A stretch of DNA of 64,000 bases, from contig JAFWNG010000025.1 in NCBI GenBank assembly GCA_017510405.1, positions 1 through 64,000 of the forward strand. Reading direction: 5' to 3'. Position 1 is the stretch's first letter, and every line of letters begins with the position of its first letter. Shown here piece by piece: positions 54,898-64,000 of the stretch. Under the pieces are notes generated by a model. It saw only the letters and a list, made by a program, of their open reading frames with translations, made no database searches and was not told the origin of the DNA. This DNA comes from Solobacterium sp. Its GTDB lineage: Bacteria; Bacillota_I; Bacilli_A; Erysipelotrichales; Erysipelotrichaceae. Both the position numbers and the translations under genes were made by a program.

Positions 54898-55311
54898 TCA
54901 GCCTTCCAGGGCATTATACTGTTCGTCACTCACCGGTTCCAGCCATTCGTGGCTGCCTTCCACGGTTCTGGACATCACGGAAAGATGGGAGAACCAGGAA
55001 TCTTTCGCCGCACCGTGCCAGTGCTTGACGCCGAGCGGTATTTCCACGACGGACCCGGGAACCATTTTCACCGGTTCCTTTCCCCATTCCTGATACCAGC
55101 CTTCGCCGCCGACACAGACAAGGATCTGCTGACAGCCGTTATGGATGTGCCAGTTATTGCGGCATCCCGGTTCAAATGTCACGTTGGCGATATCTGTCTG
55201 TGCGTCCGGCCCGGTCAGGGAAGCCAGGAATGTCCTGCCGGTAAAATACTGACTTACCGGATTCTTTCCGCCGATCGGGAAAGGGGATAATTCTTTCATT
55301 ACGTCTGTCAT
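54898..55311 (-). CDS. Cupin-domain protein
   Basis: A 137-residue single-domain cupin. Motif 1 is NWHIHNGCQQILVCVGGEGW (His, His, Gln for metal) and motif 2 PLGVKHWHGA. It resembles cupins next to carboxymuconolactone decarboxylase-like and aldo/keto reductase genes. The activity is unknown. A GGAAAAG-like site precedes the ATG. It follows the DUF3737 gene by 30 nt. Confidence 0.88.
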   Translation of the reverse strand: MTDVMKELSPFPIGGKNPVSQYFTGRTFLASLTGPDAQTDIANVTFEPGCRNNWHIHNGCQQILVCVGGEGWYQEWGKEPVKMVPGSVVEIPLGVKHWHGAAKDSWFSHLSVMSRTVEGSHEWLEPVSDEQYNALEG

Positions 55312-56329: not shown

Positions 56330-57610
56330 ATGAAATACGCAATCATAAATGGAATCATTCTGGATGGTACCGTCGAAATGGTGCCGGTAAAAGGAAAGAC
56401 GATCCTCATCGACGGAAAAACGATCACAGATATCATTGACAGATCCGTCACGCCTGCCGGTTATAAGACGATCGATCTGAACGGCCGGTACATCATGCCC
56501 GGTCTCATCAATATGCATGTTCATCTTGCGGGAAACGGCAAGCCCCAGAAAAAGCAGCGGGATAATACAAAGCTCGTGAACCTGATCTTCAGCAACCCTC
56601 TTTCTGCCAGAGCAGCGTACTTCCTTGTGCGGAACTACGCAAAGATCGCGTTAATGAGCGGGCAGACGACGATCCGCACGGTCGGAGGTCTGAAAGATCT
56701 TGACACCACTGTCCGGGATGAGATCAATGCCGGGAAATATACCGGACCGCGTATTCTTGCGGCCAATGAGGGCATCTCCGTACCGCACGGTCATATGGCC
56801 GGATCCGTAGCGATCACGGCCGGAAGTATCGAAGAAGCCCTGAAGCATATCGATCACCTGAAAGAAACCAAAGCGGACTTTGTCAAACTGATGATCACCG
56901 GCGGTGTCATGGATGCGAAGGAAAAAGGCGTTCCCGGTGAAATGAAGATGGACCCCGGGATGATCAAAGCCGCCTGTGATCACGCTCACGCCCTTGGCTT
57001 TATCGTCGCTGCCCATACCGAAAGCAGCGAAGGCGTAAAGGCAGCGCTGGCAAACGGCGTCGATTCCATTGAACACGGTGCCGCTCCGGACGACGAAATG
57101 ATCCGGCTGTTCAAACAACGTAATGCCTTTGTAACGACAACGATCTCCCCGGCTCTGCCGTACGCTCTGTTTGACCGCAGTGTATCCAATGCGACGGAAG
57201 TGGAACAGTATAATGGGAAAGTCGTCTTCGACGGGATCGTTGAATGCGCGAAAGCAGCGCTGGCGAACGGTATCCCGGTCGCGCTGGGAAACGATGTCGG
57301 CTGTCCGTGGATCACCCAGTATGACTTCTGGCGTGAACTGGTATACTTCCATCAATACACCGGCGTTTCCAACCGCTTTGCCCTGCATACCGCCACTGAA
57401 GTCAACGCGAAGCTTGCCGGGATCGGCGATATCACCGGCACGATCGAAAAAGGAAAGTGCGCGGACCTCATCGTGACCAGAGAAAATCCTCTGGATGACC
57501 TCAAAGCTCTGCGCAATGTACAGATGGTCATGGCCAGAGGAACGCTGATCGCGCATCCGAAAGTTCACCGGAAGAAAATCGTCGACCGGGAACTGGACCG
57601 GTTTATCTGA
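56330..57610 (+). CDS. Metal-dependent amidohydrolase
   Basis: A 426-residue amidohydrolase of the imidazolonepropionase/Xaa-Pro dipeptidase-like group. The metal motif is HVH (His63, His65), the bridging Lys is Lys186 (VKLMITGG), later His in HTES, and Asp in LGNDVGCP. It would hydrolyse an amide or dipeptide-like substrate in the cytosol. CAGGGAG lies 8 nt before the ATG. It diverges from the DUF3737 gene. The substrate is unknown. Confidence 0.9.
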   Translation: MKYAIINGIILDGTVEMVPVKGKTILIDGKTITDIIDRSVTPAGYKTIDLNGRYIMPGLINMHVHLAGNGKPQKKQRDNTKLVNLIFSNPLSARAAYFLVRNYAKIALMSGQTTIRTVGGLKDLDTTVRDEINAGKYTGPRILAANEGISVPHGHMAGSVAITAGSIEEALKHIDHLKETKADFVKLMITGGVMDAKEKGVPGEMKMDPGMIKAACDHAHALGFIVAAHTESSEGVKAALANGVDSIEHGAAPDDEMIRLFKQRNAFVTTTISPALPYALFDRSVSNATEVEQYNGKVVFDGIVECAKAALANGIPVALGNDVGCPWITQYDFWRELVYFHQYTGVSNRFALHTATEVNAKLAGIGDITGTIEKGKCADLIVTRENPLDDLKALRNVQMVMARGTLIAHPKVHRKKIVDRELDRFI

Positions 57611-57633: not shown

Positions 57634-57660
57634 GGGGCGGCAGATCACATCTGCTTGCCC
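57634..57660 (-). terminator. Terminator after lipoprotein PLP enzyme
   Basis: An imperfect 11-bp stem with one bulged T and a 3-nt loop, with a T-run on the minus strand. It lies between two convergent genes. Confidence 0.75.
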
Positions 57661-57678
57661 TGATTTTGTAAGAATCGA

Positions 57679-59151
57679 TCAATATCCCGGAACTGCGTCC
57701 GCCGTCAGTTTGGTCGTTTCTCTTGATTCGTCAATCAGATTGCCGAGAACTTTGAGGAACTCATCCACTTCTTCCTCGGTATTGTAGATACCGAAGCTCA
57801 CGCGGATCATACCCGGCGTCTTCATATCAATGCAGTTCTCAAATGTTTTCGCCTCTTCATTGGAGATACCCATAAGCCTCCATACATACGGATGCGCACA
57901 GAACGCACCGCGTCTTGTGGCAATACCGCCGGACTGTGCCAGCTTGGCAGCCATAATGTAGGAGTTGATATCTTCAAAGTTGAAGGAAACGACACCGACA
58001 CGGTCATCGATATTTTCGCTGTCACCGTAAATAATCACGCCGTCCAGTTTCTTCAGTCCTTCGATCAGTTTCTTATTCAGTCTCTTTTCATGTTCTTCGA
58101 TGGCGTCAAATCCGACTTCTTTCAGGACTTCCATTGCCTTGACCATACCGACAACGCCGGCATAGTTCGGAGAACCTGCTTCATAAGATTCCGGAGAACT
58201 CTTGTAGTATACATCATCATCCGTAACGATCTTGACGATACCGCCGCCGTAGAAGGTCGGCATATGCTGATCCAGGATCTCCCATGGTCCAATGACCGCG
58301 CCGCCGCCGTACGGCGAATACATCTTGTGAGCGGAGAAGACGAAGAAGTCAATGTCTTCTTCCGGTGTTTCCCCCTTCATGGAGAACTTTCTGTGGGCAA
58401 CGATCTGTGCGCCGTCAACGATGATCTTCGCACCGTGCGCGTGTGCCATCTTTGCCACTCTGTGCACGTCGGTGATATAACCGGTCACGTTCGAAGCTGC
58501 TGTAACGCAGACATATTTGACTTTGCCTTCGTTTTCCGCAAGAAGTCTTTCGATATCATCGTAAATGATGCGTCCCTGGTCATCCACTTCGGCATAGATG
58601 ACATTGCAGCGTTCACGCCACGGCAGGTCGTCCGCATGGTGTTCCATACGTGTCGTCAGGATCAGATCATCCTTGCTTTCCACCAGAGCAGAAGCCAGTT
58701 TGTTCAGTCCGTCTGTCGTACTGTTGACATAAAAACATGTATAGGTACTCGGGTTCGCGCCGACAAATTCCATGACCGCATCCCTGCTCTCCACGTAAAC
58801 GTCTGTGGAATGGTTGGATTTTCCGGAGAAACCGCGGCCGATCGAACCATACATTTTCATTTCTTTCTCGATCGCATCCTGTGCCGGTTTCAGCGGCGGT
58901 GTCGTGGCAGCGTTGTCAAAGTTGATCAGAGGACGCTTTGTTCCGTCATCCAGTTCTACCGGTTCATCAACGCCGACAACATAATCACGGATGTTGTCGA
59001 TCGTATATTTGATCTCCGGCTCCGCCGACTCTTCCGGTGCGGTATCCTGTTTCGATGACGACGAAGCAGCGGATGTACAGCCGACCGTCAGTGAACAGCA
59101 CAGGAACAGTGCGGGCAGTCCGCGCAGAAAGTTTTTCGTTGCTTTGCTCAT
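57679..59151 (-). CDS. Aminotransferase class V/cysteine desulfurase-like lipoprotein
   Basis: A 490-residue PLP enzyme. Residues 1-25 form a lipoprotein signal with the lipobox LTVGC (Cys25). A Ser/Glu-rich linker of about 30 residues leads to a full fold type I domain. The PLP Lys is Lys276 (FSAHKMYSPYGGG). RRGAFCAHPY (Cys418) lies where SufS-type desulfurases have their catalytic Cys. The start follows GGGAGG. If exported, it would act outside the cell on cysteine or a related amino acid. The neighbours are unrelated. The call of the fold is firm, while the reaction is not. Confidence 0.88.
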   Translation of the reverse strand: MSKATKNFLRGLPALFLCCSLTVGCTSAASSSSKQDTAPEESAEPEIKYTIDNIRDYVVGVDEPVELDDGTKRPLINFDNAATTPPLKPAQDAIEKEMKMYGSIGRGFSGKSNHSTDVYVESRDAVMEFVGANPSTYTCFYVNSTTDGLNKLASALVESKDDLILTTRMEHHADDLPWRERCNVIYAEVDDQGRIIYDDIERLLAENEGKVKYVCVTAASNVTGYITDVHRVAKMAHAHGAKIIVDGAQIVAHRKFSMKGETPEEDIDFFVFSAHKMYSPYGGGAVIGPWEILDQHMPTFYGGGIVKIVTDDDVYYKSSPESYEAGSPNYAGVVGMVKAMEVLKEVGFDAIEEHEKRLNKKLIEGLKKLDGVIIYGDSENIDDRVGVVSFNFEDINSYIMAAKLAQSGGIATRRGAFCAHPYVWRLMGISNEEAKTFENCIDMKTPGMIRVSFGIYNTEEEVDEFLKVLGNLIDESRETTKLTADAVPGY

Positions 59152-59321
59152 ATCATTCCTCCCTTATTGACCTGTTTATCCAGAATATATGGTTTTCTTT
59201 ATCAAAAATATACAACAACATCGACCGAAAAAGTATGCTCGGAAACGAAGTTAAGATTCATTTTCATGCATGGATGTTTCCGCGGCGTATTTTTCAGCCT
59301 GGCTGATCAGTGTATCCCGAA

Positions 59322-59383: not shown

Positions 59384-60256
59384 TTATTTTTTCGTAAGCC
59401 TGTAAGTATCTCTTTCAATGGTCAGATCATATTCTGTCTTCGCTCCGGAAGGATCGACCATCGTCAGAACGGTTTTACCGGCCTTTCTGAAATCCGCATG
59501 CAACATATAATCCTCAACACCGGCAACGTAACGGATGTCTACATTTCCGTACTTACTGTCATCCAGATAGACCGAATAGGTATCATCAAACGGGTGTTCC
59601 TCATTATTTCCCATGATCTCGGTGCTGTATACCGGCGGATTGAGCAGAGTGATGATGACCGCAGCCGCCGCAGCTGCAGCACCAATCGCAGCACCAGCCT
59701 TCTGGATCTTTTTATCGTCAAATACCGCGATCGGATAAAGGATCATCATGCAGATACAGAACAGTGTGATCAGAATGTACCGCGGACTGGAGAAAAGGAA
59801 CATGGAGAAGTATCCTAACAGCGAACCGGCTGTAATTGCGATCATCGGCAGAAGGATCAGCAGTCCCCACCATTTGTTCTGCTTCATGTAATATCCGATA
59901 TATCCCATCGGCAGACACAGGATCGTCCACATAAACCAGTATTTGTAATAGCCGAACAGCTGCCATCCCAAAGTGCTGAACGGCACCTGGATCAGATACA
60001 CAAGCGGCTGACTGATCAGGAAGAATACGAAACATTTCAGAGCAGAGTCCAGATTGGACTTGCTGTTCATGATAATGAGAATACCGAAGAGGATCCATAC
60101 TTCAAACGTTACCGTAATGGCGTTGAAAGATGTGTAATGAAGTCCCGGTATGATTGCCATTGCCGCAGTGAACGCACCGGCAATTACGGCTGCTATGATC
60201 AGCTTCGGCCAGGTCAGATCGATCCCGCCGAATGCTTTTTTAATCAGATCTTTCAT
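59384..60256 (-). CDS. Multi-pass membrane protein with C-terminal domain
   Basis: A 290-residue protein with about seven hydrophobic segments in the first 215 residues, including an Ala-rich helix (AAIGAAAAAAAVIITLL). A soluble C-terminal domain of about 75 residues follows (YSVYLDDSKYGNVDIRYVAG ... TYRLTKK). No family was recognised. AAAGGA lies 12 nt before the ATG, an unusually long spacer. A terminator separates it from the PLP lipoprotein. Confidence 0.7.
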   Translation of the reverse strand: MKDLIKKAFGGIDLTWPKLIIAAVIAGAFTAAMAIIPGLHYTSFNAITVTFEVWILFGILIIMNSKSNLDSALKCFVFFLISQPLVYLIQVPFSTLGWQLFGYYKYWFMWTILCLPMGYIGYYMKQNKWWGLLILLPMIAITAGSLLGYFSMFLFSSPRYILITLFCICMMILYPIAVFDDKKIQKAGAAIGAAAAAAAVIITLLNPPVYSTEIMGNNEEHPFDDTYSVYLDDSKYGNVDIRYVAGVEDYMLHADFRKAGKTVLTMVDPSGAKTEYDLTIERDTYRLTKK

Positions 60257-60441: not shown

Positions 60442-60466
60442 TTTCATTGAAAGCATGGAGGAAACT

Positions 60467-61111
60467 ATGCCGCTGGAAACATTTGAAAAACTGCCTGCAG
60501 AAAGACAGGAAACGATCCTGGCAGCGGGCATCCGGGAATTCTCCCGGAAGTCCTACACAGACGCCAGTACCGACAGCATCACAAAAGAATGTAATATCTC
60601 AAAGGGAATCCTCTTTCATTACTTCGGTTCCAAGAAAGCCTTCTACCTGTACTGTCTGGAACGATCCATGGAACGGCTGACACAGCCGACAGAAGAAGTC
60701 GCCGGGAATGATTTCTATGAAATACTTTTTGACAGTATGACCCGGAAGATGAACTTGTGCCTGCAGTTCAGCGATGAAATGCATATGGTGAACATGGCAT
60801 CCCGGGAAGCGGCAGCTGATGTCGCACTGCAGAAATCCGAAGTACTGCAGAAATACATGTCTGCTGTACAGAACGAATCCGGAAAGATCCTGAACAGAGC
60901 ACTGGAAACACTGCCGATGAGGACAGAGGAAAACAGACAGCTTACAGCAGAAGGTCTGCATATGTATATCAATGCGGTGCTGAACCATTATCTGGCACGT
61001 TACCAGCAGACCCCGGATCTGTTCTTTGCGCACAGCGAAGAGATCAAACAGGAAATGAAAGAATATCTGGATCTGATGCTGTACGGCATCTGCGGAGAGA
61101 AAGCACAATGA
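60467..61111 (+). CDS. TetR/AcrR-family regulator
   Basis: A 214-residue TetR regulator. The helix-turn-helix is in residues about 10-55 (RQETILAAGIREFSRKSYTD, ASTDSITKECNISKGILFHYF). The ligand domain follows. The ATG at 60467 has GGAGGAA upstream; an in-frame ATG at 60455 lacks a site. It overlaps the PaaK-like gene by 4 nt and probably represses both genes from the two operators upstream. Confidence 0.9.
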   Translation: MPLETFEKLPAERQETILAAGIREFSRKSYTDASTDSITKECNISKGILFHYFGSKKAFYLYCLERSMERLTQPTEEVAGNDFYEILFDSMTRKMNLCLQFSDEMHMVNMASREAAADVALQKSEVLQKYMSAVQNESGKILNRALETLPMRTEENRQLTAEGLHMYINAVLNHYLARYQQTPDLFFAHSEEIKQEMKEYLDLMLYGICGEKAQ

Positions 61112-62481
61112 AAAGAACCGGTATCCTGAAGGCAATGAAACTGTGCCGGGACTATGAAAAGCTGAGCGACGCGGAAAGAACGAAGCTGCGGCAGAAACGA
61201 CTGCGGGAGATCGTGGAATATGCCCGGCAGAACAGTCCCTATTATCAAAAACTGTATGCGGATGTCCCGGCAGATTTCTCGTTGCGTGATCTTCCGCCGA
61301 CCGACAAGAAAACACTGATGGCGAACTGGAATGACTGGGTCACAGACAAAGAACTTACGTTGGAACAGGTTGAACGGTTCATGGAGAACAAAGACAACAT
61401 CGGCCGGAAACTGAACAATAAATATCTTGTGTTTACCACATCCGGATCTACCGGCAATCCCCTTGTTGAAGTATGTGATCCGACCGCGAACAGTATCATG
61501 GGCGCCATCAGCGCAGTCCGCAGTTTTGCGAGAAAAGAAGACCTGGCCGCCTTCATGAAAAGAGGCGGTAAGAGCATCGGCGTCTTCGCGGACGAAGGAT
61601 TCTATCTCGGCAACAGCAGTATCCGCTCCCGGCTGCTGTCCATGCCGTGGAAAAAGAAACAGATGGCTGTTTCCAGCGCTTTATACCCGATTCCGAAAAT
61701 CGTTCAGCAGCTTAATGACTTCCAGCCGGCCATGGTAGGCGGCTATCCATCCAATCTGGAGCTTCTCATCGATGAAGCAGAACAGGGACGGCTGCGAATC
61801 TCGCCTGTGCTGATCATGACCGGCGGTGAATACTTGTCCGACCGTCTGCGCAAACGGCTCGCTGAAACTTTTCACTGTTATGTACAGACCTCCTATTCCT
61901 GCACGGAAGGCGGCACGGTCGCCTGTGAGTGCACACAGCGTCATTTCCATATCAATGAGGACTGGCTGATCGTGGAACCGGTGGACAGTGAAGGAAATCC
62001 TGTGCCGGACGGCGTGCAGTCCGATCATATCCTTCTGACAAATCTATACAACTATACGCAGCCATTCATCCGCTACGAAGTAACAGACCGGGTGATCATG
62101 CATCATGAACCATGTGTGTGCGGGAATCCTTCCCCATGGATCGAACTGGAAGGCAGGACGGATGATGTAACATCCTTTACCGAAGGCGGCAGAGAAATTA
62201 AAATAGCACCGCTGTCCATCTATGCGGTGCTGAAGGAAGTGCATGGTCTGCGCCGTTTCCAGGTACTCGTATATGACGGCAATGTGATCGAACTGCGCAT
62301 TGAACCGACGGACGGCATGAACCGGCAGGATGCTTTTGAACAGGCATCGGAAAAACTCCGGGATTATCTGGCTTCACAGGATGTCATCCATGTGACGATC
62401 CGGTTGTCAGAAGAACTGCCATGCCAGCAGGTCGGCAGCGGCAAGTTCAAACATATCATCCGCATGCAGGACATCTCCTGA
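61108..62481 (+). CDS. PaaK-like adenylate-forming enzyme
   Basis: A 457-residue phenylacetate-CoA ligase/CapK-type enzyme. It has the phosphate loop TTSGSTGNP, YSCTEGG in the substrate/adenylate region, the QPFIRYEVTDRV segment and the hinge DDVTSF. It should activate an aryl or acyl acid as the adenylate and probably form a thioester. The ATG overlaps the TetR stop (ATGA). No thioesterase or other pathway gene is adjacent. A terminator follows at 62513. Confidence 0.87.
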   Translation: MKRTGILKAMKLCRDYEKLSDAERTKLRQKRLREIVEYARQNSPYYQKLYADVPADFSLRDLPPTDKKTLMANWNDWVTDKELTLEQVERFMENKDNIGRKLNNKYLVFTTSGSTGNPLVEVCDPTANSIMGAISAVRSFARKEDLAAFMKRGGKSIGVFADEGFYLGNSSIRSRLLSMPWKKKQMAVSSALYPIPKIVQQLNDFQPAMVGGYPSNLELLIDEAEQGRLRISPVLIMTGGEYLSDRLRKRLAETFHCYVQTSYSCTEGGTVACECTQRHFHINEDWLIVEPVDSEGNPVPDGVQSDHILLTNLYNYTQPFIRYEVTDRVIMHHEPCVCGNPSPWIELEGRTDDVTSFTEGGREIKIAPLSIYAVLKEVHGLRRFQVLVYDGNVIELRIEPTDGMNRQDAFEQASEKLRDYLASQDVIHVTIRLSEELPCQQVGSGKFKHIIRMQDIS

Positions 62482-62955: not shown

Positions 62956-64000
62956 TCAGTTTTCCGTATCCATCTTGAAGATGAACTTCACGGATGTCCG
63001 TGTACCTTCGGCAGCTCCGCCGTAATTTGTATATGCCGTATCACCGCTGAATACTTTCTTCAGTACTGCCAGTGCATCATCCAGCTCATCACCGAGGACG
63101 TTTGTCAGCCGGTCAATGCCTTCCCGTTTGAACTGTTCCATACCACTTAACAGCGTGCTCATGCCTTCGTCCAGTGTCGAAGCGCCATCTGCCAGCTTCT
63201 TTGCGCCATCCTGCAGTGATTTTGTACCGCCCGCAAGTTCCCTCGATCCGTTTGCCGCACTGCCGATGCCCATTGCCAGTTCGGCAACTCCGTCATTCAG
63301 TTTTGAAGCGCCTGCCGCAAGTGCTGCGGCACCGCTGTCAAGAGCACTTACACCATTCTGCAGTGTACCGGTCTTGCTGTTGAGTTCGTTCATCCCCTGC
63401 TGCAGCGCTGCAGCACCGTCATTGACTTCCTTTGCACCATCGGCCAGTGAATCAGCACCGCTCTTCAGTGTGCCGGTGCCTTCTTTCAGCTGCTTTGCGC
63501 CGTCATCCAGTGTCGAAGCACCTGCAGCGAGCTGTTTTGTTCCGTCTGCGACCTGCTGCGCTCCGCTCTGAAGCGCTGCTGCACCGTTCTGAAGGGCACC
63601 AATGCCGGTGTTTTCATCTGCCAGCCGAGATGTGCCGTTTTTGAGCTGATCAAGTCCGGAGGACAGCTGTCCGATACCGTTCTGTGCGGATTCTTTCATC
63701 TGTCCGGCTCCGGCAGAGAGACTGTCGATTCCGACATTTACCTGTGTCATTGCGCCTTCCAGAGCCGCAAGATTCTGTGCCAGTACGTCACTGCCTTCGC
63801 TCTTAAGAGCGCCGGCTCCGGCAGCGATCACTGCCGCACCCTGTTCGGCATCTGCTGTTAATGCGCTGTTGATCGCCTGGGATGCGCCGGCTTCTGCTGT
63901 CTTCGCACCTTCGAGATTTCCCTGTGCCTGCTGCAAGGCCGCAAGGATCGCTGCCTTATCGTCTTCACTGATGCCTTCCAGGGAAGAGACTGTGCTGACG
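62956..64000 (-). CDS. Heptad-repeat protein, 3' part
   Basis: The open frame runs off the right edge; at least 347 residues are visible. It is built of many Leu/Ala-x-x-Gly heptads (such as LADGAKEVNDGAAAL, LQDGAKKLADGAST), as found in YhgE/Pip-type and MmpL-associated proteins. The C-terminus (TSVKFIFKMDTEN) has no membrane segment, so any membrane part must lie upstream, outside the window. The visible frame has no stop to the edge. The role is unknown, probably an envelope coiled-coil protein. Confidence 0.78.
   Translation of the reverse strand, partial: VSTVSSLEGISEDDKAAILAALQQAQGNLEGAKTAEAGASQAINSALTADAEQGAAVIAAGAGALKSEGSDVLAQNLAALEGAMTQVNVGIDSLSAGAGQMKESAQNGIGQLSSGLDQLKNGTSRLADENTGIGALQNGAAALQSGAQQVADGTKQLAAGASTLDDGAKQLKEGTGTLKSGADSLADGAKEVNDGAAALQQGMNELNSKTGTLQNGVSALDSGAAALAAGASKLNDGVAELAMGIGSAANGSRELAGGTKSLQDGAKKLADGASTLDEGMSTLLSGMEQFKREGIDRLTNVLGDELDDALAVLKKVFSGDTAYTNYGGAAEGTRTSVKFIFKMDTEN

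Follow-up and report, generated by a model that had tools for sequence, protein, structure and literature searches.

Cysteine desulfurases are textbook cytosolic enzymes, whose reactive persulfide is handled beside protein acceptors. A gene on the minus strand of the window, as we call the whole 64,000-nucleotide stretch of Solobacterium sp. DNA analysed here, raises the question of whether one such enzyme could work outside the cell. With a probability of roughly 0.6, our best reading is that of a SufS-type enzyme exported by Sec and lipid-anchored through Cys25, which would desulfurate cysteine at the cell surface.

The gene is intact and opens with ATG (Table 1). Between residues 2 and 97 the frame holds no ATG, GTG or TTG, so a cytosolic start shortly past residue 25 is unavailable and a wrong start codon could be ruled out. 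The next in-frame start lies at residue 98, and its use would delete the invariant FDNAATTP strand. With a GGGAGG placed ahead of the only start before residue 98, the view of the initial annotation that the protein is exported, and not cytosolic from a later start, is upheld. A fusion or assembly artefact was likewise discarded, the same architecture being found in about 20 other genomes.

The gene stands alone, flanked by amidohydrolase and membrane-protein genes. Downstream, the amidohydrolase gene (56330-57610) is convergent and a hairpin sits between both stops; upstream, the membrane-protein gene (59384-60256) has a strong hairpin at its end. A generic promoter and terminator scan of the locus gave no signal above chance, and Rfam revealed no riboswitch or other RNA element in the leader. 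Neither SufBCD, SufU nor another dedicated acceptor was found near the gene, and the identified neighbours are unrelated. Since the window genome also has a SufS-like enzyme of the ordinary kind (L002) and a NifS-like one (L003), Fe-S assembly need not rely on the lipoprotein.

Table 1. Features of the desulfurase-like gene and its surroundings, with positions in the window
Feature	Position	Strand	Basis
Gene for exported cysteine-desulfurase-like lipoprotein, 490 aa	57679..59151	-	Full-length relatives with 81% identity in other genomes
Shine-Dalgarno sequence GGGAGG, 6 nt upstream of ATG1	59158..59163	-	Read from sequence
Predicted Sec signal peptide, residues 1-24 (n-region KATKNFLR, hydrophobic core, lipobox LTVG)	59080..59151	-	Alignment and lipobox test
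Codon of Cys25, predicted lipidated mature N-terminus	59077..59079	-	C25 in 16/17 exported rows, 0/22 cytosolic rows
Ser/Glu/Pro low-complexity linker, residues 26-48	59008..59076	-	Length differs among relatives; pLDDT <50 at residues 24-35
Catalytic domain, residues 49-480, SufS-type fold-type I PLP enzyme	57712..59007	-	AlphaFold2 pLDDT about 90-98 over most of domain; VIA-align Z 44-46, rmsd 1.8-2.4 to SufS structures
Cys182, candidate disulfide partner of Cys440, invariant only in core exported clade	58606..58608	-	Alignment
Lys276, PLP Schiff-base lysine (SAHKM)	58324..58326	-	Aligns with B. subtilis SufS K224
Cys418, catalytic persulfide cysteine (RRGAFCAHP)	57898..57900	-	Aligns with B. 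subtilis SufS C361
Cys440, invariant only in core exported clade, absent from all cytosolic sisters	57832..57834	-	Alignment
Hairpin between desulfurase gene and convergent amidohydrolase gene, probable two-way terminator	57634..57662	.	RNA fold

A SufS-type domain behind a lipoprotein signal

The complete desulfurase-fold domain proposed by the initial annotation was confirmed. Pfam Aminotran_5 spans residues 76-465 (E 5.7e-82), and in the AlphaFold2 model from window and locus proteins (mean pLDDT 89.7) the SufS-type fold covers the full length, SufS being the best VIA-align match (Z 46.1, rmsd 1.8, 394 residues). Foldseek and VIA-align both rank SufS/CsdB first, all of the closest solved structures are SufS or selenocysteine lyase, and the best sequence matches to solved structures are SufS enzymes. 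The PLP lysine, the ring-stacking histidine, the catalytic cysteine and the substrate-binding arginines are all present. Alignment to B. subtilis SufS pairs H171 with H121, K276 with K224, R413 with R356, C418 with C361 and R450 with R376, and the roles given earlier to Lys276 and Cys418 are therefore correct. These five residues, along with D246 and Q249, are invariant wherever covered across 51 aligned rows, which take in five SufS outgroup sequences and one fragment (L103) ending before K276.

The window protein represents a known enzyme kind in exported form. With SufS/CsdB, the group II cysteine desulfurase and selenocysteine lyase (TIGR01979), it shares the fold (Z about 45), all catalytic residues and a short active-site Cys loop. 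It differs by its sequence (about 30% identity), its export and predicted lipid anchor, and a stretch from the catalytic Cys to the substrate Arg that is 17 residues longer. TIGR01979 is the best NCBIfam model, at 293.5 bits and below a cut-off (475.1) that the cytosolic sisters miss too. The encapsulin cargo cysteine desulfurase (NF041166) also combines a SufS-type domain with an extra N-terminal region, but that region is a cargo domain for a cytosolic nanocompartment and the window protein scores 249 against a cut-off of 800. It shows no close match to the phosphorothioation desulfurases DndA (84.8 bits, cut-off 480) and SspA (118.5 bits with PADLOC), and no dnd or ssp genes occur among its identified neighbours.

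SufS/CsdB enzymes double as selenocysteine lyases, and the close structural matches include selenocysteine lyase of E. coli. On these grounds the protein could be a selenocysteine lyase or a general sulfur/selenium scavenger, acting mainly on selenocysteine or cystine from digested protein. We hold this to be improbable: the NCBIfam SclA model (NF040779) yields 130.6 bits against a cut-off of 525, and no selenium gene lies among the examined neighbours, few of which were identified.

Ahead of the domain, the N-terminus MSKATKNFLRGLPALFLCCSLTVGC displays what is expected of a bacterial lipoprotein, namely a basic n-region, a hydrophobic core and a lipobox with Cys25 at +1; the signal sequence itself reads MSKATKNFLRGLPALFLCCSLTVG up to C25. 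The lipobox has Leu at -4 and a less usual Thr at -3, and we take it, Thr included, to fit the PROSITE PS51257 pattern. A strict lipobox pattern is passed by 15/18 relatives, versus 18/390 neighbouring background ORFs and 0/26 cytosolic sisters, and the position of the lipobox Cys had been correctly annotated. The linker that follows is disordered in the AlphaFold2 model.

Given the Thr at -3, one might suppose that the hydrophobic N-terminus merely anchors an enzyme remaining on the cytosolic side. This is the least credible of the readings weighed here, since the lipobox Cys is conserved, and neither the twin-arginine signals of relatives in TatC-bearing hosts nor the cleavable SPase I-type signals of two others would make sense on a cytosolic enzyme. 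From these sequence comparisons, export of this SufS-like subfamily is close to certain to be real and conserved.

Relatives and the origin of export

Conservation of the signal, on which the initial annotation had made its reading depend, extends to 23 relatives. Close relatives (59-81% identity) occur in Erysipelotrichaceae, Oscillospiraceae, Lachnospiraceae, Eubacteriaceae and Coriobacteriales, chiefly in rumen or ruminant-gut MAGs, and also in the isolate NK3D112. The exported gene is carried by 10 of 70 genomes of the window's genus and by one of 392 phylum-wide genomes, namely the window's own. Counting the window's own, 19 distinct Bacillota copies have their N-terminus intact. Of these, 17 have a lipobox or come close to it; the other two have an SPase I-type signal (L020) and a probable one whose start is uncertain (L019). 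The five Coriobacteriia copies (L098-L101, L103) all bear twin-arginine motifs (DRRTALK, DRRSAVK, SRREFL, TRRDAL, TRRSFL), and four of them a lipobox. One further copy (L024:5920-7312) is broken by frameshifts or sequencing errors, with a lipobox-like VTAC in another frame.

The catalytic core is under purifying selection (dN/dS about 0.07, within 0.06-0.09). Signal and linker diverge fast, with a dN about 4-8 times that of the core, yet they retain their type, so that the predicted signal type is kept although its letters change. No neighbouring gene is shared across 20 exported loci, and no pathway is indicated; the adjoining genes are hydrogenase-like, M20 peptidase, CstA, MatE, DUF218, glycosyltransferase and others. 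Within the plasmid collection a single cousin was found, in Methylobacterium (38% identity), and phage records contained only SufS-like matches of up to 33% identity. The cousin (L104:8055-9383, Methylobacterium aquaticum plasmid pMaqPC1), for which no function was recognised, is flanked by a DUF4395 gene and a heavy-metal P-type ATPase within a region for copper handling.

In a tree of 51 proteins, the 23 exported rows form one clade (support 100/99) nested within a cytosolic clostridial family, in agreement with an earlier tree. On this tree, a single change from a cytosolic to a predicted exported enzyme is needed. Three Coriobacteriia Tat copies branch first in the exported clade, with moderate inner supports of 81-87. 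This branching suggests Tat as the first export route, and a later switch to Sec signals when the gene entered Bacillota devoid of Tat.

The cytosolic sisters, marked by the motif RxGCFCA[HQ]PY, were found in roughly one of every eight Clostridia genomes sampled (48 matches in 391, two of the 48 being exported copies). They resemble the exported enzymes by 38-49% identity, the same active site and a shared N-terminal element before FDNAATTP. They differ in having no signal peptide, often a DsrE_2 partner, mostly a second Cys (416) adjacent to the catalytic one, and no Cys440. DsrE_2 proteins are a family of sulfur carriers, and in 11 of 26 sister loci the desulfurase gene is immediately followed, on its own strand, by a DsrE_2 gene. 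This proximity makes it very likely that the sister family passes its persulfide to a DsrE-type carrier. In these 11 loci (L042, L043, L047, L050, L053-L058, L060) the two genes make up a conserved unit; the DsrE_2 protein carries a CC motif, and with the sister desulfurase it is likely to form a persulfide donor and acceptor pair. No DsrE_2 gene was seen near any of the exported genes examined.

Export route and cofactor supply

The predicted type of export signal matches the translocase of the host, for relatives in two phyla. TatC was detected in 5/5 genomes with Tat-type copies (Coriobacteriia) versus 0/19 distinct genomes with Sec-type copies (Bacillota), the window genome being among those where it was not found. 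Twenty Sec-copy genomes were searched, two of them (G060 and G833) apparently being one genome, and Tat-positive and Tat-negative control species gave sensible results. Most genomes are drafts, in which single absences of TatC could be gaps; 19 out of 19 are not explained so. The match rests on few independent contrasts, since the Tat copies are all from Coriobacteriia and occupy two places in the tree.

Sec translocates unfolded chains. As TatC was not found, the cofactor should then bind outside, and the Bacillota enzyme probably leaves the cell unfolded and picks up PLP there. The initial annotation had left two options, PLP available outside or export in folded form. The first is the likelier for the Bacillota, as no TatC was detected in any Bacillota host tested and folded export by Tat is apparently unavailable to them. 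The second was not to be set aside altogether: the Coriobacteriia hosts use Tat-type signals. That the same enzyme should travel via Tat in some hosts and Sec in others offers a clean natural experiment on PLP acquisition by exported enzymes, in which at least one host has no detected B6 synthesis pathway.

This host is of interest for the supply of the cofactor. Neither PdxS nor PdxJ was found in the window genome (G000, 96.6% complete), from which we infer that the organism is probably a vitamin B6 auxotroph living on external B6. Its habitat must then offer B6 vitamers. These absences could also fit a surface protein that binds PLP or pyridoxal and aids vitamin uptake, with little catalysis. 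Such a role is very unlikely, because a mere binder needs no invariant C418, R413 or R450, and no B6 transporter was recognised adjoining the gene.

Probable chemistry at the cell surface

According to our preferred reading, a surface-anchored cysteine desulfurase, the chain would be exported by Sec, cross the membrane unfolded and be tethered by a lipid at Cys25 on the outside of the cytoplasmic membrane, with the flexible linker spacing the domain from it. It would fold outside, where it would bind PLP or the pyridoxal vitamers that the gut contains, an extracellular PLP supply being assumed. Judging from the residues of the active site, cysteine from the surroundings would be bound as an external aldimine and Cys418 would attack its sulfur, leaving alanine and a Cys418 persulfide. 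The sulfur would then be freed as sulfide by surrounding thiols or handed to a putative surface acceptor. It is probable that these cells carry out sulfur chemistry with a vitamin B6 cofactor on their outside. If this desulfurase branch does act outside, rumen and gut bacteria would produce sulfane sulfur or sulfide at their surface, and the gut would have a source of sulfide beyond the usual pathways.

Cys182 and Cys440 are both present in 20/20 rows of the core exported clade; L100 and L101 have neither, and L103 lacks Cys182 and is truncated before 440. In the cytosolic sisters Cys440 occurs in 0/23 and Cys182 in 3/23. Their joint gain suggests a Cys182-Cys440 disulfide. Loss of Cys416 as an adaptation to export was ruled out: the cytosolic sisters nearest to the exported clade are also devoid of it, and a loss that predates export is no evidence of adaptation.

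The changes at R414, W424 and Cys182/Cys440 could indicate an altered substrate. The protein might be exported and no longer be a cysteine desulfurase, acting instead as a beta-lyase, epimerase or aminotransferase on a peptide, a cell-wall amino acid, a cysteine S-conjugate or another outside substrate. Invariant clade-specific changes close to the active site (R414, A416, W424, C440) and the loss of the DsrE_2 partner speak in its favour, and so does the precedent of PvdN, which has the same fold and acts on pyoverdine (PMC6411801). We nevertheless regard this alternative as unlikely, although it deserves more weight than the others, because the hallmark residues of desulfurases are all invariant, C418 above all, and the PvdN family model (NF051467) gives 24.8 bits against a cut-off of 650.

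PvdN of Pseudomonas is, as the window protein would be, a fold-type I PLP enzyme active outside the cytoplasm, in its case in the periplasm (PMC6411801, PMC7497351). It differs in being soluble, exported by Tat (PMC6085387) and devoted to an oxidative decarboxylation on pyoverdine; none of the best 50 structural matches listed is PvdN, which has no bearing on fold kinship. The initial annotation knew of no lipoprotein member of this family. Within the literature searched, mostly outside subscription journals, we found no cysteine desulfurase described as periplasmic, secreted, exported, extracellular or a lipoprotein. Exported PLP enzymes as such already had a precedent in the periplasmic PvdN (PMC6411801, PMC6085387).

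Taken jointly, the pieces would describe a surface-anchored desulfurase exported unfolded by Sec, which gains PLP outside in B6-dependent gut bacteria, produces extracellular persulfide or sulfide in an extracytoplasmic sulfur mobilisation not described before, had its Tat and Sec routes swapped between phyla and is stabilised by a new Cys182-Cys440 disulfide. We advance this full combination only tentatively, as the chances are somewhat against all of its parts holding together.

Two other genes of the window deserve mention. A small cupin (54898-55311, minus strand) comes near the (R)-mandelonitrile lyase model, with 114 bits for a cut-off of 140. Cut by the window end, a gene on the minus strand (62956-63999) encodes a long protein with G-A-x-x-L-x-x-G-type repeats and adjoins a TetR regulator and an F390-synthetase-like AMP ligase gene (60455-62481).
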